This document shows, one piece after another, positions 13,154-45,730 of a stretch of 64,000 nt of DNA. A program made the translations under genes and the position numbers. Source of the stretch: Fimbriimonadaceae bacterium (GTDB lineage Bacteria; Armatimonadota; Fimbriimonadia; Fimbriimonadales; Fimbriimonadaceae); contig CP075366.1 of NCBI GenBank assembly GCA_019454145.1, positions 62,001 to 126,000 of the forward strand, written 5' to 3'. Below the pieces are notes generated by a model. That model ran no database searches, was not told the origin of the DNA, and worked only from the letters and a program-made list of their open reading frames with translations. Every line of letters starts with the position of its first letter. The stretch's first letter is position 1.

Positions 13154-13897
13154 TCAGAATTTGAGTCCATAGCCAAATCCAACGATCACGTTGGATCGGT
13201 TGCTACTGCCTTCCAAGTGTTTCGAGTCGAAAAGACTGGTGAATCCAACGCTTGTCCAGAGAGTGCCGTTTTTGCCGAGCGGAGTTGATACCTTAGCTTC
13301 AAGTCCGTAATCCGCCAGACCTGCTCGAGCGTTGCCGTAGGTGAAGTCGTTATTTTTCTTGTCGCCGTAGCCAACCCAGAAGTTGAGTTCAACCGGTAAT
13401 TGACTTAATGGGCTCAAATTCGTTGATCCACCTAGCTTCAAATAAGTGCCTTTGGATTCATCTACATCAAAGTAACCCGCGATATAGGGGTTTAGTGGAT
13501 GGTTAAAACCAAATTGAGCGAAAACTTCGGTTGTGTTTGCAAGTCCAGTCGTCGGATAGGCGTACTGTACCGCTCCCACAGTCCATGAGCCAAGCGCAGA
13601 TTCGCCGCTGTAGCTGAGAGTTGTGTCCCACTCGGTGAAGCGGTTTTTCCCGTTAGATCCGCTTGGGTAGAGCACGTTGTTTGTAAACTCATAGCTTCCC
13701 CAAACGTTGAGTTCAAAGCCTTGCAATCCAACCGTCAAACTAGGCTGGAAAACCCCGCCGTTGGAAAGATTGACCCCACGCCAAACATATTTTGAGTAGA
13801 TCGCGCTGTCAAGCGAAACGTCAAACGGAAGTTCTGAAGCCGCGCTTGCAACAACTGGTACTGATAGAATCGCACCGGCAATAAGATTGAATTTCAT
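13154..13897 (-). CDS. Putative outer-membrane beta-barrel protein (TorF/Gcw_chp-like)
   Basis: 247 residues with a signal peptide (to about AASA, residue 20). The rest alternates short amphipathic strands (FELNVWGSYEFTN, SWTVGAVQYAYP, LPVELNFWVGYGDKKNN) and ends in GFGYGLKF, a C-terminal aromatic residue typical of barrels folded by BAM. The early motif SAIYSKYVWRGVNLS resembles the 'DYVFRG' start of TorF/Gcw_chp putative porins. Ligand unknown. Confidence 0.65.
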   Translation of the reverse strand: MKFNLIAGAILSVPVVASAASELPFDVSLDSAIYSKYVWRGVNLSNGGVFQPSLTVGLQGFELNVWGSYEFTNNVLYPSGSNGKNRFTEWDTTLSYSGESALGSWTVGAVQYAYPTTGLANTTEVFAQFGFNHPLNPYIAGYFDVDESKGTYLKLGGSTNLSPLSQLPVELNFWVGYGDKKNNDFTYGNARAGLADYGLEAKVSTPLGKNGTLWTSVGFTSLFDSKHLEGSSNRSNVIVGFGYGLKF

Positions 13898-14046
13898 GGA
13901 TGAGTCCTGAGCGTGGCTCTAGAAATATTTAGGTATCCCAGAGTCAAATCTCCAGTATTTTTTTGAAATCTTACACATTTGGATTTAAGGGTAGGTCTAC
14001 AAAAATAGGGGAACTATTTTCGCGTATTTGAATGTAAATGTTTATT

Positions 14047-14127
14047 GAACTCCAAGGGGAGTCGGGTGACCGAAAGGTCAAAAAAGGCTGTCTCCAACTA
14101 TCCTTAACCCGCCCTCCCTTGGAGCTT
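14047..14127. other. Compact nested inverted-repeat element (candidate structured RNA)
   Basis: Read on the plus strand: outer helix CTCCAAGGG (14050-14058) with CCCTTGGAG (14116-14124), a second helix CGGG/CCCG (14063-14066/14108-14111), and an inner hairpin TGACC-GAAA-GGTCA (14067-14080) with a GNRA loop. Between them AAGG and CCTT may also pair. It lies between two minus-strand genes. I do not recognise a named RNA family. The GAAA tetraloop favours the plus strand as the RNA strand, but no promoter is clear. Confidence 0.5.
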
Positions 14128-14152
14128 ACTTTTTAATATACAGATGAATTGC

Positions 14153-15997
14153 TTACTTTGGAAGTGGCAAGCCCATTGCTTCGAGCCATTCCCGCAGTTT
14201 TGCGATTCGAGTTGCTGAATCTTGCGGCAAGACAAGCGGACGGCCACGACCATCAATCACGATGCCAACCGTTCCACCTTCGAGTTTCGCCTGGATTTCC
14301 TTACCTTTTCCAGCACCGACATCGAATGTTTTGGCAGGAGTGATCGTGACGTTTTTATATTCGTGGCGACCAAGTGGAATGACCTTGATTTGACCAACCT
14401 TGATGCTTTCATTGATTCCGTCACCACTGATGGTGACCATCGGATCGCCTTCTTTGCCAGTTCCGATCGGGGAAACGCAGTGACCGCACTTGACAATGCA
14501 GTCGTAGTCAAATACTTGCTTAGCCGCTTCAAAGAAGTGCTCGCTGAGAACCCCGAGGTGAGGCATCATAAAGATACTGTCAACCGTGAGCATGGTCACA
14601 CCCTCGGGTTGGTAAGCATCCATCATCATTAGCGCAGATTGAGCCCGCAATGGAGCGTGGGAGAGAACCCCACCCGAACCGATGATCATATCGAGCTTGA
14701 GCATCTTGATGAGCGTTGAGCCAGATTCAGCTTGGTCAAAGATTTGTCCAACGTCGCGTTGTTGCTGAACACCCTTGAGGTTCCGAGCCAACGACTTGTG
14801 ATGCAAGAAGGCAAGTCGTAGAGCTTCTCGCGAGACTGCTTGCTCAATCAGCAGGTCTTCATAAGCTTGCGGAATCGTCGTCGGACGAATCATCTTGTTG
14901 CGCAAACGGTTGCGGACTTCAAACGGATCAATTTCAAACGGCAACCAGCGGGCGATATTTTCGGTTCCGGCTTCCTTGAGTACGTTGCAGATGCTGTAGC
15001 TCATGCCGAGGTTAGCCGATACGGTTCGGTTGTAAACCCCGTCAAAAACGGAAAACACGTCGGTGGTGGCTCCGCCGATGTCAACGCCAAGGATATTGAT
15101 TCCTTCTTGGTCAGCGTAGGCTTTCAGGAGCTTTCCAACCGCGTTTGGAGTTGCCATGACCTCATAGCTCGCCCACTCTAGCAGCTTGTTATAGCCAGGA
15201 GCCTGTTGCATAACGTGCTCAAGGAACAGCTCGTGGATTTCTTCGCGAGCAGGATCAAGGTTTTCGCTATCAAGAGTCGGGCGAAGGTTATCAACCACGT
15301 TTAGTTCAATCGAATCGCCTAGAACTTCCTTGACTTCGTCACGTACTTCTTTGTTTCCGGCAAAGATAACCGGAAGCTTCATATCGCCAAATCGAGGTTT
15401 TGGGTCGGCTCGAAGGATAACTTCCGCCATGTCTACAAGGTGAGTTTTGGTTCCACCGTCGGTGCCGCCAGACATGAGAATGATGTCGGGGCGGAGTTTG
15501 CGAAGTCGTTCAACTTTTTGGAAGTCTTTTCTGCCGTCGTCAACTGCGAGGGTATCCATAAGGATTGCCCCTGCACCTAATGCGGCGCGTTCTGCTGATT
15601 CAGCAGACATGGATTTGACAACGCCTGCGACCATCATTTGAAGTCCACCACCAGCTGAAGAAGTAGAGACGTACATATCTGCGCCATCAAATTCGCCATT
15701 GCGCTCTTCGGTGCGGTTGCCTTCTTTAATCATTCGCCAGACTTGGCCATCGCGAATTAGTTTTCGTTTTGCTGCCGTGTAGCCTTCGGGAACCTTGCCT
15801 TCGCTTACTTCTTCGAGCTCGTTCATGGCGTTGGTGACACCAATAGTGACGTCTTCAAACGGCTTTTCAACGGTAGTCGGCGCTTCACCACGGGCGACCA
15901 ATCGGTACTGGCCCTCGGCGTTCCGCTCGATCATGATGGCCTTGGTTGTAGTTGAGCCGCAGTCAGTGGCAACGATTCGCAAGATGTCTTTGGACAT
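14153..15997 (-). CDS. glmL: GlmL/MutL-type ATPase (glutamate mutase accessory family)
   Basis: 614 residues. The N-terminal phosphate motif ATDCGSTTTKAIMIE and the later LGVDIGGATTDVFSVFDGVY are ASKHA-fold ATPase signatures, matching the GlmL/MutL family encoded with coenzyme-B12 glutamate mutase in clostridia. LMSGGTDGG, FAGNKEV and a C-terminal LAPL-like part fit the full-length family. Family members are thought to reactivate or assemble B12 mutases. No mutase subunit gene lies nearby, so the partner is unknown and the symbol describes the family only. Confidence 0.82.
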   Translation of the reverse strand: MSKDILRIVATDCGSTTTKAIMIERNAEGQYRLVARGEAPTTVEKPFEDVTIGVTNAMNELEEVSEGKVPEGYTAAKRKLIRDGQVWRMIKEGNRTEERNGEFDGADMYVSTSSAGGGLQMMVAGVVKSMSAESAERAALGAGAILMDTLAVDDGRKDFQKVERLRKLRPDIILMSGGTDGGTKTHLVDMAEVILRADPKPRFGDMKLPVIFAGNKEVRDEVKEVLGDSIELNVVDNLRPTLDSENLDPAREEIHELFLEHVMQQAPGYNKLLEWASYEVMATPNAVGKLLKAYADQEGINILGVDIGGATTDVFSVFDGVYNRTVSANLGMSYSICNVLKEAGTENIARWLPFEIDPFEVRNRLRNKMIRPTTIPQAYEDLLIEQAVSREALRLAFLHHKSLARNLKGVQQQRDVGQIFDQAESGSTLIKMLKLDMIIGSGGVLSHAPLRAQSALMMMDAYQPEGVTMLTVDSIFMMPHLGVLSEHFFEAAKQVFDYDCIVKCGHCVSPIGTGKEGDPMVTISGDGINESIKVGQIKVIPLGRHEYKNVTITPAKTFDVGAGKGKEIQAKLEGGTVGIVIDGRGRPLVLPQDSATRIAKLREWLEAMGLPLPK

Positions 15998-16138: not shown

Positions 16139-16306
16139 TTATCTTTGAATGGCTTCGTTTTCAGCTATCTCTGCTGGCTGAGATTGCGTTTGTATCTCGG
16201 CCTTCACGTCCGCATTAACCTGCTCTTGGCTTGCCGGCGCTTGTGAGCAACCAACGATCACCATGCTCAGCAATGCTGAAGCCAATGCGGTCAAACGAAC
16301 GCTCAT
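16139..16306 (-). CDS. Small lipoprotein coupled to the upstream prepilin-like gene
   Basis: 55 residues from the ATG at 16306, which shares a base with the stop of the prepilin gene (TAATG). A short signal sequence ends in the lipobox VIVGC; the mature part is a small Gln/Glu/Ala-rich tail without recognisable domain. The overlap suggests translational coupling. Function unknown; compare the similar pair at 17382-18571. Confidence 0.75.
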   Translation of the reverse strand: MSVRLTALASALLSMVIVGCSQAPASQEQVNADVKAEIQTQSQPAEIAENEAIQR

Positions 16307-17205
16307 TAATTGCCCCAGTCCCGGCTCCATCCCTTATTGGTTGTCGCAGCCCCTTTCCATTTGTCCGCTTTATACAGAACGTGATAGAGGGTTCCGGTAG
16401 GAACATGCTTTGCGTGTCCATCGGCGTAGGAAGCTGTTGTTCCATTGCCGGAGATAAGGTTTTTTCGCCATCCGAGCGGTTCAATTGTCAATGATCCGTT
16501 TACGTTATAGGCTTGACCGTTTCCTGGATCAGAAGGTCCCCAGACTGCAATATCACGCACGTCACCCGTAGGGGAAGCGATTGCATATTGAGGAGGGCGG
16601 CTTAACTGAGATCCGTCGGTGAACGAAAGGGTTTCGGCTGGTGATGCCAGGATTGTTGACGAAGCGGGGTAGTTATACGAAAGATCGGCATATTCGCCAT
16701 ATGCTGCGGTTGTTCTCGTAACACAAACCCCAGTTGTGAGCAGGTTAATGGTTCTCGCACATGTAGAAAATCCGCCGAGTGTCCAGTGGTTATATGCAAA
16801 TGTGTTATAGATTTTGCTCGGTCGAATACCATCAGAAAGGGGATTAACCCAAATGTCTTTCAGTTCGCCGTTCTTAGAGTTGACGCCATTCTTGATGTAC
16901 GGATCAATGAGGGTAGGAAACATATATCGAAGGTCAAACACGCTTCCTGTGTCGGATGTGCCGGCACGGGGAGGACAGTCTGCTACAGTGCATCCCATAC
17001 CTGCAGACCACAATGGCCATACATCATCGTAGTCCGCGAGATAAATTTGTGCGGCTGTGTTGATGTTTTTGACGTTGCTGAGAGCTTGAGTTTTCTTTGC
17101 AGCAACCTTTGCTTGCGCGAAAACTGGGAACAAAATTGCTGCAAGGATCGCGATGATCGCGATGACGACGAGCAGTTCGATCAGGGTAAATGCACTCTTT
17201 TTCAT
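16306..17205 (-). CDS. Prepilin-like protein (type IV pilin/pseudopilin N-terminus)
   Basis: About 299 residues from the ATG at 17205, which has GGGAGA upstream; an in-frame ATG at 17229 has no good ribosome site. MKKSAFTLIELLVV is a class III signal cut by prepilin peptidase before Phe6, with Glu5 of the mature chain present. The soluble part carries paired cysteines (GCTVADCPP, CARTINLLTTGVC) and ends with a 'TASYADGHAKHVPTG' segment found in DUF1559-like secreted pilins (H-x-G/DGH type). It is likely a minor pilin or a pseudopilin-anchored surface protein. Confidence 0.88.
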   Translation of the reverse strand: MKKSAFTLIELLVVIAIIAILAAILFPVFAQAKVAAKKTQALSNVKNINTAAQIYLADYDDVWPLWSAGMGCTVADCPPRAGTSDTGSVFDLRYMFPTLIDPYIKNGVNSKNGELKDIWVNPLSDGIRPSKIYNTFAYNHWTLGGFSTCARTINLLTTGVCVTRTTAAYGEYADLSYNYPASSTILASPAETLSFTDGSQLSRPPQYAIASPTGDVRDIAVWGPSDPGNGQAYNVNGSLTIEPLGWRKNLISGNGTTASYADGHAKHVPTGTLYHVLYKADKWKGAATTNKGWSRDWGN

Positions 17206-17253
17206 CAGGTTCAATCTCCCTTGTTTCATAAATGACTCAAGGTAACCAAATTT

Positions 17254-17381: not shown

Positions 17382-17582
17382 CTAGCCGCCGTCGGTTTGT
17401 TGACCGTTGCCGCCACCCCGTTGTTCGGGAGGGACGGTTCCTGCGGGTGGTTCTACGGTTTCTACCTTTCCTTGTCGGGTAGGAACACCTTCATTCGGAT
17501 CAGATGATGAACATCCGCTCAGAAGTGTGGCAATCCCAGACAAGGCAATGCATCCAAGTAAAAGAAACCTTATATTTTTCAT
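17382..17582 (-). CDS. Small lipoprotein, second prepilin-coupled copy
   Basis: 66 residues. The signal peptide ends in the lipobox LLSGC (Cys24); the mature part is short, Pro/Gly/Gln-rich and probably disordered. The ATG overlaps the prepilin stop by four bases (ATGA). It shares no clear sequence identity with the lipoprotein at 16139, only size, lipobox and position. Confidence 0.78.
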   Translation of the reverse strand: MKNIRFLLLGCIALSGIATLLSGCSSSDPNEGVPTRQGKVETVEPPAGTVPPEQRGGGNGQQTDGG

Positions 17583-18571
17583 GGAGCATCCACTGAGTCA
17601 GGTTGGCTTGCTACCGCTGGCTGAGCACTAAAGTCATAATCCGGGCGGAACATGTAGACGTGGCAGAAGTTTTGGTCATACCAACGACCATAAGCTCTGG
17701 TGTCAACGTAGCTCGTAAATGGATCGTTTCTTGGATCCGTCATCGGTCCAGTCGGAACAGTGCTATTGTTGCTCAAACTCAGTCGTCGGAACTTAGCATG
17801 GCTGTCAGCGAAGGTCATAACGATTCCTCGGCTGTAGACATCCCAACCAGATCGGTTTGTGTTCGTGCTTACAAATGAAGTTTCGCCGTTTGTTCGTGCC
17901 AAGCCATTACATCCTGCGGAGCCAGGAACGTAACGACAATCGGATGCAGCAATTCCGCACAAAAGGTTAGGACTTGCATACATGTGACCGTATATTGAAC
18001 GGCGGCCCATACCATCCCAGAAGATTGGTAGTTCAGCAACGCTCGCAATTGCGGTGGAAGAGTAGCCCGTGAGCAAACCGTTATAGGTATAGCTGAAGTA
18101 ACCGGTACCTGAAGTTGGAAGGTTAACACCGCCTGCCCCTTTATTAGCATCTGGAGTCATTGAGAAGGCCAGCTTCGCACGTTCAAAAGTTGCACCAGGA
18201 GAACGATAAAGCTGAAGATTCTTCATGTACGGTTGCATTGCGTTAAATACAAATGCCGAGTTTGCTCCTAATCGATCAATATCGTTTGCAGAAGTTCCGT
18301 ACGTGTAAGCTTTGATCGGAACTGGCACAAAACTGTCCCAAGTCCAGCCGCCGTATGCGGTTGAGCGAACAATTCCAAGTGGGTGAAGATCGTCGTAATC
18401 TGCAAGATAGATTTGAGCCGACGTTCCCAACTGCTTAACGTTGCTAATCGACTGAGTTTTCTTCGCTGCGACTTTCGCCTGCGCGAAAACAGGGAACAGA
18501 ATTGCGGCGAGAATTGCGATTATCGCAATGACCACCAGCAGTTCGATTAATGTAAATGCACTCTTTTTCAT
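17579..18571 (-). CDS. Prepilin-like protein (DUF1559-like)
   Basis: 330 residues. MKKSAFTLIELLVVIAI and the following FPVFAQAKVAAKKTQSISN are nearly identical to the neighbour at 16306-17205, so the two are paralogues in tandem. The C-terminal part contains RGIVMTFADSHAKFRRL, the counterpart of the DGH segment, and a C-terminal Cys region. Expected to be cut by prepilin peptidase and assembled or anchored through the N-terminal helix. A TATAAT box at 18616-18621 (minus) lies 45 bases upstream and GTCAAGGAA precedes the start. Confidence 0.88.
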   Translation of the reverse strand: MKKSAFTLIELLVVIAIIAILAAILFPVFAQAKVAAKKTQSISNVKQLGTSAQIYLADYDDLHPLGIVRSTAYGGWTWDSFVPVPIKAYTYGTSANDIDRLGANSAFVFNAMQPYMKNLQLYRSPGATFERAKLAFSMTPDANKGAGGVNLPTSGTGYFSYTYNGLLTGYSSTAIASVAELPIFWDGMGRRSIYGHMYASPNLLCGIAASDCRYVPGSAGCNGLARTNGETSFVSTNTNRSGWDVYSRGIVMTFADSHAKFRRLSLSNNSTVPTGPMTDPRNDPFTSYVDTRAYGRWYDQNFCHVYMFRPDYDFSAQPAVASQPDSVDAP

Positions 18572-24007: not shown

Positions 24008-24814
24008 TTATCGGAAGCGCCAGATTACAGTTCCAAAGCCGTTGAGAGCTTTAGCGGTGTAAACCTTAGCGTGACCATCAGCAAAAACGATTGGCGTACG
24101 ACCACCGTTCTTTTTATCCGATCCAATCCGTGCGTAGATTGGCTTGAGCGCGCCAGCAGAAAGGCTGGGCGAAGTGGGATAGTTTGCATCACCAGTTTCG
24201 ACAACAAGGTCACGATCTGAGATCAGTGGAAGACCCTTGTAGTAGTCACCATCTGGGGAATTCAAGCCATTGTAAGGATTGAACACATAACCTCGGTGTT
24301 TGGTTGTTGTCACGTCTTTTGGTGCGTTAGCAGTGAGAGCAAACAGTCCAGTTTGAGAAACAAACTCGGCCTGACTAAAGTTGGCTGAACCTGTGAACCC
24401 TTCTGTTCCTGCAGGAGCATTTCCAACAACCGCAGTGCTCGCTGGATCAACGCCAGTTGCGTCGCTGTATCCAACAGATTGATGGCGACGGCTCGCCCAG
24501 TTTTCTGCGTAGCCACCATTTGAATCGGGTGCGCTGAAAATCTGCTTGTTCTTGACGTATGGCTGAAGACCCTGCGTCCAGATGATCGGATCAATAGATG
24601 GATCGGTGCTTCTAGCACTTGCGGGAACGAAGTTATCGTCGTAATCGCCAGCGTAGATCATTACGGAGAGGGAGAGCTCACGCATGTGCGTCAAACTCTG
24701 AGCTTGCTTCGCGGCAGTTTTTGCTTGCGCAAACACAGGGAAGAGTATGGCTGCGAGTATTGCGATGATCGCAATCACAACCAATAGTTCAATCAGTGTG
24801 AATCCTTTTTTCAT
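24008..24814 (-). CDS. Prepilin-like protein, third copy
   Basis: About 268 residues from the ATG at 24814 (22 upstream in-frame codons are unlike the family). MKKGFTLIELLVVIAI is a class III prepilin signal followed by FPVFAQAKTAAKQAQS. The globular part ends with TPIVFADGHAKVYTAK. Unlike the two copies at 16-18.6 kb it is not followed by a lipoprotein but by a terminator. A TATAAT box is at 24840-24845 (minus). It is downstream of the sigma/anti-sigma pair on the same strand and may or may not be in its regulon. Confidence 0.87.
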   Translation of the reverse strand: MKKGFTLIELLVVIAIIAILAAILFPVFAQAKTAAKQAQSLTHMRELSLSVMIYAGDYDDNFVPASARSTDPSIDPIIWTQGLQPYVKNKQIFSAPDSNGGYAENWASRRHQSVGYSDATGVDPASTAVVGNAPAGTEGFTGSANFSQAEFVSQTGLFALTANAPKDVTTTKHRGYVFNPYNGLNSPDGDYYKGLPLISDRDLVVETGDANYPTSPSLSAGALKPIYARIGSDKKNGGRTPIVFADGHAKVYTAKALNGFGTVIWRFR

Positions 24815-24907
24815 GATTTTGTGAATACCTGAGGGCTTGATTATAGAATTATCGACAGAGTGAAAGCTTAGAAAATTCAATCTGAGCTATGTTAGCCCGT
24901 ACTAATA

Positions 24908-25771
24908 CTAGCCTTCGTTACTTAGGGTTCCATTGGTTTCGCGACCAATGCGAGAGTTCTCATTATTATCAGTCCCTCCCGGAACGGGTAGCAATCCGGT
25001 TCCAGCATGTTCGTTGCCTGGTGATTCACCAGCTGAACCGGGCAATTGACCACCGCTTGCGGAATTTGGATCTCGGGCTGGGATAAGAAGAGCCGAATTT
25101 GGCGTCTGAATCATCGGCGTAAACCCGAAAGATCTTCCTAAGGCTTGCAAAACTTCAAAAGCGGGAATATCTCGAAAATCTAGCTGGATAATAATGTCGG
25201 GCATTCCCGGTGCCGATTCAAGCCTGATGCCCGCCTGAACAGCAATATCATTAAGGGCACTGTCAAGTGAGATGTTTTTCGCGACGATTGTCACTCGTTT
25301 TTCCATCGCTGTAATTGGTTTGACCGGGGCCTCTTCACCTATATCCGGTTTGGTTTCATCAGGAGAGATGCTTTGATTTTGTTGACTACCCGTTGAACCT
25401 GAAGTCTGGCTTTGAGCCGACATATTTTTGAGCCCGCCCTCAACAACTGGTGGTGGGGAATTTTTTGATTCGACAAACTTCAATGTGCCTAGCGTTGCAA
25501 AAACGCCGGCTGCTAAAAGAAATGTTGCCGCTGCAAATGCCACCCATCGAGGTGGTTCGGAGTTCAGTCGCTGGGGAGTGGGTAAGAAGCGTGATTTCGA
25601 TTTGATTTCAACTGGCCGAGAGCCTTTGATTCCGCGAACCATAGTCATCCTAGACATCAACTCAGCGCGGTACGCCGGATATCGCTCGTGAAACTGCTCG
25701 ATGGCCTTGTCATCCTGACTCTCAGCGATTTGCCACATCAGGTCATTGATTTCGGGAGGGATGTGGCTCAC
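24908..25771 (-). CDS. Anti-sigma-like membrane protein with periplasmic STN (secretin/TonB N-terminal) domain
   Basis: 287 residues. N-terminal helical cytoplasmic region (1-50), Pro/Lys linker, one membrane helix (about 77-97), a Ser/Gln-rich linker, then residues 158-231 with the STN pattern (VTIVAKNISLDSALNDIAVQ, FRDIPAFEVLQALGRSFGF). The tail is low complexity (Gly/Asn/Ser). Its ATG overlaps the sigma gene stop by four bases, the standard arrangement for a sigma factor and its anti-sigma. The N-terminus lacks the HxxxCxxC zinc motif. STN domains elsewhere bind signals or partners in FecA-type receptors and secretins. Confidence 0.7.
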   Translation of the reverse strand: MSHIPPEINDLMWQIAESQDDKAIEQFHERYPAYRAELMSRMTMVRGIKGSRPVEIKSKSRFLPTPQRLNSEPPRWVAFAAATFLLAAGVFATLGTLKFVESKNSPPPVVEGGLKNMSAQSQTSGSTGSQQNQSISPDETKPDIGEEAPVKPITAMEKRVTIVAKNISLDSALNDIAVQAGIRLESAPGMPDIIIQLDFRDIPAFEVLQALGRSFGFTPMIQTPNSALLIPARDPNSASGGQLPGSAGESPGNEHAGTGLLPVPGGTDNNENSRIGRETNGTLSNEG

Positions 25772-26346
25772 GATTCAACCTCCGGCAAGGATTCATAAAT
25801 CTGCTTGAACCGCTCTCTCGCTCGGAAAAGCCGAGTTTTTGCCGCGTTAGCGGAGCATTCTAAACTGTCGGCGATCTCTTGTAAGGTCAGTTCATCCCAA
25901 TAGAATAAAGTCAAAATTGCCCGGTCGTTGGGGTGAAGGCGCGACATTCCTTCTGCCACTCGTGGGTCAGCATCTTCGGGCGGTCGCTCATGATCGGGAA
26001 TTGACTCAACGGCTTCGGAATACGGCGTTTGATGCTTTTTGTATTTCAGCCGCCGAGCAGATTGAATAGAGCGGTTGACAGAAATGCGGAATAGCCAAGT
26101 GCTGAACTTGCTCCGACGGTCAAATCTCGGTAGGTTTTTATAGACTAAAGTAAATATTTCCTGTACGGCGTCAGAAGCTTCATCGGCCTCTAAAAGAATC
26201 CCTTTAGCAATCGCATAGACCCGGTCGTAATACTTTTCGTAGAGCGATTGGAAGGCGTGATGGTCAGACGACAGCACTCGGTCAACGAGGACTAGATCCT
26301 CGTCGAATTGTTCCGATTTAGCATGTTCGTACGTTGAACTCAACAC
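25768..26346 (-). CDS. ECF-type RNA polymerase sigma factor
   Basis: 192 residues. Region 2: FQSLYEKYYDRVYAIAKGIL, DEASDAVQEIFTLVYKNLPR and STWLFRISVNRSIQSARR; region 4: LHPNDRAILTLFYWDELTLQ, EIADSLECSANAAKTRLFRA. No other domains. It probably directs transcription of a small regulon including its own operon and is held by the membrane protein encoded next. Starts 43 bases from the glycosyltransferase gene end on the same strand. Confidence 0.94.
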   Translation of the reverse strand: MLSSTYEHAKSEQFDEDLVLVDRVLSSDHHAFQSLYEKYYDRVYAIAKGILLEADEASDAVQEIFTLVYKNLPRFDRRSKFSTWLFRISVNRSIQSARRLKYKKHQTPYSEAVESIPDHERPPEDADPRVAEGMSRLHPNDRAILTLFYWDELTLQEIADSLECSANAAKTRLFRARERFKQIYESLPEVES

Positions 26347-42131: not shown

Positions 42132-42536
42132 ATGGCTAAAGATCAGTTCCACGATATTCCCAAGGAGTGCCCCATCACCGGGGAGCCACTTTACGTAAGT
42201 GAGCTGACTTCTTTGAAAAGTGGCGTGGTGATCCGCGGCAAGTTTGCCCTTCCGCATACTGCTGAATTAGAATCGGATCAAAAGGAATTTTTGGAAGTAT
42301 TTCTCCGTGCGCGGGGCGTGATCAGCACGATGGAAAAGGAACTGGGAATCAGTTACCCAACCGTTAAGGCCAGGGTTGATTCTCTGCTGGAAGCGATGGA
42401 TTTGGAACCATTCAAACTTGACCGCAAAGCCGAGGTTCGGGCCGAAGAGCGAGCGAAAATTTTGAAAATGTTAGAAGAGGGAGAGATTTCGGCAAGCGAT
42501 GCCAAAGAACAACTCAAAAAGGTAGGGGCGAAATGA
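42132..42536 (+). CDS. DUF2089-family protein with helix-turn-helix
   Basis: 134 residues. AAGGTG lies 9 bases before the ATG at 42132; a GTG at 42120 is less likely. N-terminal ECPITGEPLYVSELTSLKSG holds one cysteine where DUF2089 members often have a zinc pair, then a helix-turn-helix (RARGVISTMEKELGISYPTV). The C-terminal ILKMLEEGEISASDAKEQLK is a SHOCT-like helix pair that recurs in the next protein. Likely a regulator of the next gene, whose ATG overlaps its TGA. Confidence 0.85.
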   Translation: MAKDQFHDIPKECPITGEPLYVSELTSLKSGVVIRGKFALPHTAELESDQKEFLEVFLRARGVISTMEKELGISYPTVKARVDSLLEAMDLEPFKLDRKAEVRAEERAKILKMLEEGEISASDAKEQLKKVGAK

Positions 42537-43780
42537 AAGACGAAGTACGAAGGATTATGCAGTTGGTGAAGGACGGCAAATTGTCGCCCGATGATGCCGC
42601 CGAACTAATTGAGGCGTTTCAGGATGCTCCCGACGAGCCAAAGGAAACTCCCCCACAAGAAGAGCTTCGGGCTGAATCGGTTTCAGGCGAAGTGCAGGAT
42701 CCGCCGCCAGGTTCAAAAGCGCGAAACGATGATCCTTTTGCTCGGTTGATTGGTTCAATCGAAAAAGCGACCAAAGATGTAGCCCATAACATTGATTGGA
42801 AGGATATTTCAAATCAAGTCAGGCTGGGAGTTGGCAAAGGAGTTGATGCGATCAAGGAAGCGGCCAAGGAAGCTAAGGTTGGCAAAGGGCCGTTCGGGAA
42901 TATGTTCTCCGCGCAGGTCACTCGCACGGTAGACCTTCCTCTGCAAGTTCCAGAAGGCAAGATTTTCGTTGTTGAATCCAGTTCCGGCGATGTGAGAATT
43001 GAAGGCGGACATGATCTTGGTTCGGTCAATATCGAAGCCGGATTCCGAAGCTATAACAACGAAGAAGCCGAAGCATTAGCCGATCGTTTCACACCAGCCT
43101 TAGAGGAGAGCGAAGACTCAGTCACACTCAAGCAACTAGAACCGAACGGAGTCACCGCAGATATCACCGTGAAACTTGCTAAAGGCACGCAAGTCGTTGT
43201 TCGGTTAGCCAGTGGCGACGTTAGCGTGAGCGATACGTTCGCTGGAGTTACGGTGAAATCAAGCAGTGGCGATATCCGAGTCTCAGCTGCATCCGGTGTT
43301 GCCGAACTCTCGACTTCAAGCGGTGATGTACGAGTCAGCCACAGTGATTTACGGTCAATCTCTGTCGAAACTAAAAGTGGAGATGTGATTTTGGATCACG
43401 CAAAAGGCGCGGCGAATATCCGCACGTCCAGTGGCGATGTCACTCTGTACAACTATGCTGGTCGAACCCTGGCGATTGAAGCAGCAAGCGGAAATATCGT
43501 TGCCGACTTAATCGAACCAGTCACCGGAACCGCAAATATCCGAACGGTGAGTGGTGACATCACTATGCATATGCCAGATGGCTCTGATGCTCGGGTTAGC
43601 CTCAGCACTTTGCGGGGTGAAGTCACCTGCAAACTCCCGCTGACGGACGAAAACAAAGAGTCCATGAAGGTCACCGGAACCTTGGGTGGCGGCGGCGGAT
43701 TGATCGACGTCAGCGCGGTGAACGGTGACCTGTTCGTTGCTCTTGCTGGCGCAGAACTCAAAGAAGAACCAGCCGAATAA
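42533..43780 (+). CDS. DUF4097 beta-helix protein with SHOCT-like N-terminus
   Basis: 415 residues. N-terminal IMQLVKDGKLSPDDAAELIE is SHOCT/YvlB-N-like. From about 140 the chain is a repeated beta motif, SSSGDVRIEGG, SSSGDIRVSAASG, STSSGDVRVSHS, KSGDVILDHAKG, the DUF4097 'adhesin-like' solenoid. No signal peptide or membrane helix is visible, so it appears cytoplasmic. Function unknown; such proteins accompany envelope-stress operons in firmicutes. Confidence 0.87.
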   Translation: MKDEVRRIMQLVKDGKLSPDDAAELIEAFQDAPDEPKETPPQEELRAESVSGEVQDPPPGSKARNDDPFARLIGSIEKATKDVAHNIDWKDISNQVRLGVGKGVDAIKEAAKEAKVGKGPFGNMFSAQVTRTVDLPLQVPEGKIFVVESSSGDVRIEGGHDLGSVNIEAGFRSYNNEEAEALADRFTPALEESEDSVTLKQLEPNGVTADITVKLAKGTQVVVRLASGDVSVSDTFAGVTVKSSSGDIRVSAASGVAELSTSSGDVRVSHSDLRSISVETKSGDVILDHAKGAANIRTSSGDVTLYNYAGRTLAIEAASGNIVADLIEPVTGTANIRTVSGDITMHMPDGSDARVSLSTLRGEVTCKLPLTDENKESMKVTGTLGGGGGLIDVSAVNGDLFVALAGAELKEEPAE

Positions 43781-43791
43781 GAGTTTTGGAA

Positions 43792-43818
43792 CCCCTACCT
43801 TGTTAAGCAAGGTAGGGG
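43792..43818. repeat. CCCCTACCTT hairpin, copy 1
   Basis: CCCCTACCTTG-TTAAG-CAAGGTAGGGG, 11-bp stem, 12 bases after the DUF4097 stop. The opposite strand reads GTGCCCCTACCTTG, so this copy is inverted relative to the copies at 43899 and 57839. No T-tract on the plus strand. Confidence 0.85.
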
Positions 43819-43858
43819 CACATTATCAAAAAAACTCCAACCCCAAAGATCTGGGAGT

Positions 43859-43925
43859 GCGGAACTCAAAAAAGAACCAACCGGTAGAATTTACGTGCCC
43901 CTACCTTAGCAAAGCTAAGGTAGGG
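43859..43925 (+). repeat. Decayed duplicate of the DUF4097 gene end, with CCCCTACCTT hairpin copy 2
   Basis: GCGGAACTCAAAAAAGAACC at 43859 copies the gene's own last codons (GCAGAACTCAAAGAAGAACC at 43751) 108 bases downstream; 22 of the first 25 bases agree. The copy is followed by a second hairpin, CCCTACCTTAGC-AAA-GCTAAGGTAGGG (43899-43925). So gene end plus hairpin were duplicated together and drifted. Confidence 0.8.
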
Positions 43926-43951
43926 AACTTACAGATTTAAGCTTAGGAAAT

Positions 43952-43976
43952 TCCCTCCCCGAAGATCGGGGAGGGA
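43952..43976. terminator. Hairpin in convergent intergenic region
   Basis: TCCCTCCCCGA-AGA-TCGGGGAGGGA, 11-bp stem, 33 bases beyond the stop of the convergent DUF4349 gene. No T-tract; possible terminator for either direction. Confidence 0.5.
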
Positions 43977-44009: not shown

Positions 44010-45224
44010 TTACTTCTTCATTGCTCGTCTGCGCCATATCCACAGGGCGATTACGACTGGCAACCAGAACGGAGCCAGGATCACGATATTCAGGGCAAAC
44101 GAAACCAAGCTTCGGGTGATACCAGTGAACCGGTTGATTGCTCGAATCCAGGAGTTCGATAGCCAGTCGCGGCGAGGGGCCGAAGTGATTTGCAGCCTTT
44201 CTTCCAAGCCCACGTAGATCGTGGAAAGAGTTGCCATGCCGCGCATCGCGTTGATCTGGGCTTCGGTGCCTTCGATCTGCTGGCGAATTTCGCTGATATA
44301 CCGCTTGACCTCAAGGATGTCCGAAACCTTTTTCGCTTGCTTGAGCACTTCTTGGTACTGCTTTTCTTCCAACCGCATCTGCTTGAGGCGGGCTTCGGCG
44401 TCGGCAACTACTGCTGTCACATCTTCCCCAGAATTGCTTTCCGACTGCACATCACCAAGTAATCGTAGAGACTGCATGGTTTGGTCGAACTTCTTACTGT
44501 CAACACGAATACTGAGCGAACCGTACTTAGACTGAGTGGTTTTAGAACGATCGCCCGATTCCACGAATCCGCCGTTTGCTTTGGCAAGGTCTTCAACAGA
44601 TTTGTACGTGGATTCCAGGTTCTTAACGAGGAGTTGAATGTTCCCGTTTTTTATGATGAGGCGGGGATTTCCTTGTGCAACGGATGTTGAGCCGCCTGAG
44701 GGCTTCGTACTATAAGCTTCTTCTTGACCAAACTGCGCCTTATGCTTAGATTCACTTCGTAAATCTGCACCATCACTGATTTGCGGTCTTTCCGCTTCTT
44801 GCTTCACTCGGCTGTTCGCTTGTGCATCTGCCGCTGATTCGCTTGGAGCGTAATCCATTTTCCGGCTTTCCGCAACACTCGCGGTATTTGCCATGTCCGC
44901 CATTTCATTTTTTGCCGTAACCCCAGCGGTCATAAAAGCAGGAGATGTCATCACAAGCGCGACCACACAAGTCATCGCTGCGACCAACGCATAAGGCGAC
45001 CTGACCCAAGCGAAGCGGTTGCGCTTTTTGCCCAATGCGCTCAAAGTAGCTTCTAGCCCTTTAATCTGGATTTGCGTCGCCCCTTTTTCAATCGCCTCAG
45101 ATAACGACTGCAGTTCGTCAAGTTCGGCTTGAAGCTCGGGATTTTCCGCCAGAGCTTTTTCCACTGCCGCTCGATCTTCTGCGTTCAGTTCGTTATCTAA
45201 ATATGCTTTCAGCATTTCGTTCAT
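44010..45224 (-). CDS. Anti-sigma-factor-like membrane protein with DUF4349 domain
   Basis: 404 residues. N-terminal helices (MNEMLKAYLDNELNAEDRAA, ELQAELDELQSLSEAIEKG) resemble an anti-sigma domain but lack zinc-binding Cys/His. One membrane helix at about 80-98, then a disordered linker. Residues 190-340 form DUF4349 (RLIIKNGNIQLLVKNLESTY, GGFVESGDRSKTTQSKYGSL) with a long coiled coil (ARLKQMRLEEKQYQEVLKQA), and a C-terminal membrane helix followed by RRRAMKK. The ATG overlaps the sigma gene stop. It probably holds the sigma factor and senses an envelope signal. Confidence 0.82.
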   Translation of the reverse strand: MNEMLKAYLDNELNAEDRAAVEKALAENPELQAELDELQSLSEAIEKGATQIQIKGLEATLSALGKKRNRFAWVRSPYALVAAMTCVVALVMTSPAFMTAGVTAKNEMADMANTASVAESRKMDYAPSESAADAQANSRVKQEAERPQISDGADLRSESKHKAQFGQEEAYSTKPSGGSTSVAQGNPRLIIKNGNIQLLVKNLESTYKSVEDLAKANGGFVESGDRSKTTQSKYGSLSIRVDSKKFDQTMQSLRLLGDVQSESNSGEDVTAVVADAEARLKQMRLEEKQYQEVLKQAKKVSDILEVKRYISEIRQQIEGTEAQINAMRGMATLSTIYVGLEERLQITSAPRRDWLSNSWIRAINRFTGITRSLVSFALNIVILAPFWLPVVIALWIWRRRAMKK

Positions 45225-45730
45225 GCGGTACCTCCATTCACGTGAGTGCGGAGCGATTGGAAAGCGTGGTGGAGCCGCGATTTCACTGTGCCTTCGGGGA
45301 TACCGAGCAGGTTGGCGATTTCGGTGTAAGTCATTCCATCAAGCTCGTGGAGAACCACGACTTCGCGGTGATCGTCGCTCAGTTTGCCCAGTGCTTCGGT
45401 TAGCACCACTGAAGCGATCGCTTTGTGTTCAAATGGCTGGGTTGGAGCAAACCAGTTTTGCAATTGGAGCCAAGAATTTTTTTGTTTACGACTGTGATTT
45501 CGGCAGTGGTTTTGAGCAATGCCGAGCAGCCAAGTTGAAAATGACGAGCGGTTCTCGTATCGTTTAATTGATTGCTGCATAGTGAGGAACACCTCTTGGG
45601 TGACGTCGGCAGCGGCTTGGGAGCCAACCCGGCGGGCACAGAACTTGAACACCTGACTGTAATGTTCACAGACAAGTTTTCTTAAAGCTTCTGGGTCGCC
45701 GGATTGCGCTTTATCCGTTAATGAATTCAT
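45221..45730 (-). CDS. ECF-type RNA polymerase sigma factor
   Basis: 169 residues. Region 2: LVCEHYSQVFKFCARRVGSQ, AAADVTQEVFLTMQQSIKRY and SSFSTWLLGIAQNHCRNHSR; region 4: LSDDHREVVVLHELDGMTYT, EIANLLGIPEGTVKSRLHHA. Coupled by a four-base overlap to the DUF4349 anti-sigma-like gene. Confidence 0.94.
   Translation of the reverse strand: MNSLTDKAQSGDPEALRKLVCEHYSQVFKFCARRVGSQAAADVTQEVFLTMQQSIKRYENRSSFSTWLLGIAQNHCRNHSRKQKNSWLQLQNWFAPTQPFEHKAIASVVLTEALGKLSDDHREVVVLHELDGMTYTEIANLLGIPEGTVKSRLHHAFQSLRTHVNGGTA

Follow-up and report, generated by a model that had tools for sequence, protein, structure and literature searches.

What is the compact, strongly folding sequence that occupies a gap between two genes of a Fimbriimonadaceae bacterium, a member of the little-studied bacterial phylum Armatimonadota? 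A first-pass annotation of a 64,000-nucleotide stretch of its genome (the window, by whose numbering positions are given unless a genome is named) had marked here an element of about 80 bases with three nested helices and a GAAA tetraloop, and had read it as a structured RNA or a mobile palindromic element, not as a plain terminator. We analyzed the fold of this element, its homologues and its genomic surroundings, and weighed the kinds of element that might account for them. Published work on structured or small RNAs of Fimbriimonas or Armatimonadetes did not turn up in a literature search, whose two returns apparently concern RNA extraction from biofilms and enzymes of insect symbionts.

Fold and covariation of the element

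The gap is bounded by a MutL/GlmL-like gene (PF13941; 14153-15997, minus strand) and a putative porin gene (13154-13897, minus strand), and it holds no gene, as the annotation had stated. The porin scores above the cut-off for Gcw_chp (PF09694) and below it for TorF (TIGR02001), and its start codon lies 152 nt from the element. Further along the window, flagellar-type genes were named from a reading of their translations. Several prepilin-like genes (16306-17229, 17579-18571 and 24008-24880) have near-identical N-termini (AFTLIELLVVIAIIAILAAILFPVFAQAK), with an N_methyl domain in the one scanned, and tandem similar hairpins, CCCCTACCTT...AAGGTAGGGG and CCCTACCTTAGC...GCTAAGGTAGGG, lie at 43788-43960 between the genes at 42533-43780 (plus strand) and 44010-45224 (minus strand).

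The element of about 80 bases, with its core at 14050-14124 (G000:C1:76050-76124), is present once per carrier genome. Read on the plus strand, the core opens with the outer part of stem P1, in which CTCCAAGGG (14050-14058) pairs with CCCTTGGAG (14116-14124) over 9 bp, followed by the inner part, CGGGT (14063-14067) with ACCCG (14107-14111), over 5 bp, and by the 4-bp P3 hairpin GACC-GAAA-GGTC (14068-14079). All helices of the annotation are thus present in the sequence. A fourth helix, AAGG (14084-14087) with CCTT (14102-14105), was absent from it; this helix closes the P2 hairpin (14084-14105) and makes the element a three-way junction. The GAAA tetraloop, given as a feature of the fold, proved not to be conserved: it occurs in 2/7 homologues, the remaining five having a 10-base loop. 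Within the P2 arm, 13 bases, GGCTGTCTCCAAC on the plus strand (14086-14098) and GTTGGAGACAGCC on the minus strand, are identical in all seven homologues, and the loop and junction lengths around them differ.

Folding is stronger than expected from composition on either strand. The plus strand gave -33.1 kcal/mol (z -4.26) and the minus strand with flanks -40.3 kcal/mol (z -3.74), values equaled by none of 200 dinucleotide shuffles in each case. Over 14041-14133 the fold is stronger on the minus strand (z -4.60) than on the plus strand (z -3.01), and the bare cores of the seven homologues fold similarly on both.

Covariation was assessed in a seven-row alignment (A4) that includes two near-identical pairs and so represents about five independent lineages. 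In this alignment, 94.8% of 154 cells are paired, 14 of 22 pairs are changed on both sides (6.7 +/- 1.5 in shuffles, 0/500 reaching 14), and covariation scores 0.519, compared with 0.177 when shuffled (0/500 reach it) and at most 0.107 when slid, all values being inflated by the hand fitting of the rows to the structure. The reverse-complement alignment behaves alike (96.1% paired, 14 pairs changed on both sides, score 0.550, slid at most 0.150). A count of further pair types is a weaker measure, reached by 40 and 25 of 500 shuffles in the two alignment orientations.

The covariation support stems from outer P1 (7/9 pairs changed on both sides), inner P1 (4/5) and P3 (3/4). The P2 pairing is untouched by covariation because the hairpin hardly varies (3/4 pairs constant), and it is plausible. 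Independently of the fine alignment, 8 or 9 of the 9 outer-stem positions pair in all seven homologues, whose sequences differ there. Comparison of close relatives revealed fewer changes in the element than in the spacer toward the porin, with 1/75 against 14/152 between G000 and G081 (Fisher p 0.024) and 2/80 against 8/146 between G078 and G079.

Judged by these compensating changes, which occur in homologues from seven of the eight genus genomes, the fold is real. No Rfam family reaches its gathering threshold at the element (the best, mir-305, at 25.2 bits against 66, was taken as chance), and the only match above threshold in the window is a tRNA elsewhere. A terminator scan of 13850-14250 returned no intrinsic terminator; the simple terminator is a GC-rich hairpin with a U-run, and the element is branched and lacks a U-run in 3/7 homologues on the plus strand and in 7/7 on the minus strand. 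A conserved, covarying fold with no Rfam match and no second copy is therefore not a chance structure, a repeat or a plain terminator, which bears out the annotation on the last of these.

Distribution and ancestry within the genus

BLASTN of the element against 85 family genomes returned a single near-identical copy, in G081 (98%), besides partial matches within the genus; in the genome of the window, where the annotation had suggested looking for more copies, the only strong match was the element itself. The mutL-like gene occurs in 77 of the 85 genomes, and a reading of its 3' flank at 30 loci revealed the G082 homologue by eye.

A covariance model built from the seven sequences gave eight matches at E <= 1 among the family genomes. 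Seven of the eight genus members matched at E <= 5.1e-10, with one copy each, so that the homologues with compensating changes on which the annotation had made its proposal depend do exist. A match in G060, outside the genus (21.9 bits, E 0.16), was taken as chance, and none of the 77 family genomes outside the genus gave a convincing score. The same seven carriers emerged from 113 genomes of the order. Whenever a model search covered more than 40 genomes, Infernal ran with stricter filters and no more than 55 candidates (85-genome search) or 41 (113-genome search) were scored in each genome, which leaves room for diverged copies in other genera to have escaped.

Broader scans agree in their outcome. 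The exact core pattern is found in 7/291 phylum genomes, all from the genus, and at 12 loci in GTDB, of which four genus loci score 63-77 bits and the rest at most 28 bits. A Sphingobacterium locus at 28 bits, preselected by the core pattern and with a poor outer stem, was taken as chance, as were three viral loci with the core pattern and partial matches of 15-22 bits. At 15 porin-homologue loci (14 outside the genus, plus G083), a model search with filters off found nothing above 17.6 bits, the two best being 23-base hairpins.

In G083, the remaining member of the genus, the two genes are likewise neighbors, and the gap between them shows no trace of the element; a terminator-like hairpin was seen there. 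In the mutL tree the seven carriers group together (clade support 99/97) and G083 is sister to them, a pattern explained by one gain after the split or by one loss. The element thus represents a new family, confined to the genus, among the bacterial structured or small RNAs.

Strand, upstream motif and competing explanations

We searched the spacers between element and porin in five lineages for motifs, position not being used. A GTTCCTCAAT-like block was recovered in every lineage, matched by 0/40 shuffles at widths 10 and 16 and by 1/40 at width 12; at width 8 another motif came out on top and was not significant (7/40 shuffles). The distance from block to element is 29-32 nt, or 40 nt in G082, and the block goes with the element, since the extra spacer length of G082 falls between block and porin.

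On the plus strand the conserved sequence reads GGAACTW-N16/17-GTAAWK and ends 8-10 nt before P1 (18 in G082). A two-block search, whose block widths and gap range were picked after the first block had been seen, scored 87.7 against 74.6 +/- 2.1, with 0/60 shuffles reaching it. In the window, a -35-like box, GGAACTA (14010-14016; GGAAC in 5/7 homologues, GGAAT in 2/7), is followed after 17 nt by a -10-like box, GTAAAT (14034-14039; GTAA in 5/7, GTAT in 2/7), 10 nt before P1. The sigmaE boxes are given as GGAACTTTT and GTCAAA (PMC1804206), and GGAACTT as the -35 element of RpoE (PMC8103513) and likewise of sigmaE (PMC1804206). The two-block motif thus resembles a sigmaE/ECF-type promoter and is a candidate for one on sequence likeness.

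Genes for ECF-type sigma factors lie within the window (25768-26346 and 45221-45730), which makes the proposed promoter type at least possible. Across eight genomes, GGAACTT-N15/17-GTAA occurs at 30 places against 39 for the reversed control; this lack of enrichment gives no support for a regulon.

The best explanation, to which we assign a probability of roughly 0.42, is that the element is a small noncoding RNA gene on the plus strand, divergent from the TorF-like porin gene. This reading draws on the conserved three-way junction, the invariant 13-mer and the conserved two-block motif upstream on the same strand. The plus strand is also weakly favored by two G.U pairs in 154 cells (A.C on the minus strand, which itself has no G.U pair) and by the T-run that follows P1 in 4/7 homologues, at the place of the T-rich tail CTTACTTTTT (14125-14134) of the window. 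Against it stand the better minus-strand fold over 14041-14133, the T-run missing in 3/7 homologues, and an opposing sigma70-like site in G082, where the best -10/-35 pair near the element faces the other way (TTGAGG-17-TATGAT, p 0.006 uncorrected for 14 tests). A further difficulty is that the element keeps an almost constant distance from the porin start in 6/7 carriers, as would be expected of a leader.

The main rival, unlikely in our estimate yet deserving of serious weight, is that the element belongs instead to the minus strand, as a cis-regulatory 5' leader in the porin mRNA (riboswitch-like, protein-binding or mRNA-stabilizing, with some 150 nt between it and the start codon). The same two genes flank the element in all seven carriers, and the porin gene follows at 146-152 nt in six of them (241 nt in G082), whereas the distance to the mutL stop ranges from 8 to 276 nt. 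Terminator-like hairpins, identified by eye, separate mutL from the element in G082 and G084; the sigma70-like site of G082 would precede the element in this direction, and with no T-run behind the element on the minus strand in any homologue, a minus-strand transcript would run on.

Several observations weigh against a leader. An alternative helix joining the P2 arm to the spacer downstream had looked persuasive by eye in several genomes, but its duplex energies proved no better than those of dinucleotide shuffles (p 0.06-0.77), and it was rejected. The two-block motif is directed away from the porin, the minus strand has no A.C-free advantage, and in G083 the porin gene is present and the element absent. 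Moreover, the porin may have its own promoter downstream of the element, in a CCTAA-N17/18-CCGATAAAT-like block seen by eye about 35 nt before its start (13897-13960) in G078, G079, G084 and G082 and degenerate in the others. Elsewhere in the window, TAA-N15/21-CCGATA occurs at three places, in or near coding sequence.

Two further explanations appear improbable to a similar degree. One would place the structure in the 3' UTR of the mutL-like mRNA, for end protection or processing. The close spacing in G000, G081, G078 and G079 would suit it: there the element begins 8-28 nt past the mutL stop with no other hairpin between. In G080, G084 and G082, however, 130-276 nt intervene, in the last two with the terminator-like hairpins noted above, and the mutL-like gene is far more widespread in the family than the seven genomes with the element. 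The other is a role as DNA, whether as a protein-binding inverted repeat or as an extrudable hairpin. The near-absence of G.U pairs on both strands and the ability of both to fold are consistent with this, but a DNA-binding site would not usually branch, vary in loop length and contain an invariant stretch off its axis.

The mobile half of the original proposal, a REP- or MITE-like palindrome, has an outer inverted repeat and compact size to recommend it and is nevertheless hardly credible, being contradicted by the single copy at one locus in each carrier and by the low scores of all core-pattern loci beyond the four from the genus; the structured-RNA half is the one upheld by the compensating changes.

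A small RNA and its known counterparts

Under the small-RNA reading, an RNA of about 80-90 nt would be transcribed from the plus strand, starting at the base of P1 and ending at or near the T-rich tail, with the two-block motif as its putative extracytoplasmic-function (ECF), sigmaE-like promoter. The P2 hairpin would present UCUCC, within the invariant stretch, for pairing in trans with the ribosome-binding sites of target mRNAs, thereby blocking their translation. That the RNA acts in envelope stress is a guess, prompted by the type of promoter and by the neighboring gene.

Searches for targets bear on this mechanism. Pairing between the loop and the start region of the neighboring porin was at chance level in the seven genomes (p 0.30-0.99), and the porin was dropped as a direct target. 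The 11-mer GTTGGAGACAG occurs at 23 places in eight genomes, seven of which are the element itself; no conserved trans target was found among the 20 loci read. At one locus (L119, G080:C4:330236-330246) a prepilin-like gene has, at its ribosome-binding site, an exact 13-nt complement of the invariant stretch, probably by chance, since the other 13 prepilin-like starts lack it.

Two other roles for the conserved sequence were considered and rejected. CsrA-binding RNAs carry several conserved GGA sites in loops; here a single GGA stays constant on the minus strand, the second (AAGGA on that strand) being AAGGT in G082, and csrA is present in 8/8 genus genomes, including the element-free G083. 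A short minus-strand ORF over the invariant stretch (TTG/ATG, then TTG GAG ACA GCC) was noticed by eye. It shows no synonymous change in the seven homologues and differs in length and start, which indicates nucleotide rather than codon constraint.

The more specific combination, a genus-level, ECF-driven small RNA divergent from the TorF-like porin, whose three-way-junction scaffold presents an invariant anti-RBS hairpin as the noncoding arm of an envelope-stress response, is a long shot as a whole, albeit one worth stating. A covariation-backed RNA with a promoter-like motif offers a concrete candidate, of which the ends, strand, regulator and seed are all testable.

Three groups of known RNAs invite comparison. 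Three-way-junction riboswitches and structured leaders lie upstream of a gene and combine a closing stem with two hairpins, a stretch of hairpin sequence being conserved. The element shares this layout and position, but it lies below every Rfam threshold, and no alternative pairing of the P2 arm with the spacer was found beyond chance.

MicA (about 70 nt) and RybB (about 80 nt) are sigmaE-dependent small RNAs of Enterobacteria (PMC1804206). As described there, they resemble the element in size, in being intergenic and single-copy, and in a GGAACTT-like -35 box, and an envelope gene adjoins the element here. The -10 box of the element is GTAA-like, in contrast to the GTCAAA given in that paper, and the element differs further in being a three-way junction with no Rfam sequence match and no pairing found with the neighboring porin.

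Outside Proteobacteria, sigmaE-dependent small RNAs are represented by FoxI and FoxJ of Fusobacterium, the latter about 156 nt long and formerly taken for a 5' UTR (PMC11005410). The expression, regulator and targets of these RNAs are established in that account, whereas the element is known from its sequence. By description, they set a precedent in another phylum for an ECF response with a noncoding arm. Should the ECF reading prove right, the logic of envelope-stress small RNAs would extend to a further phylum, and Armatimonadota, like Proteobacteria and Fusobacteriota, would have an envelope-stress response with a noncoding arm.
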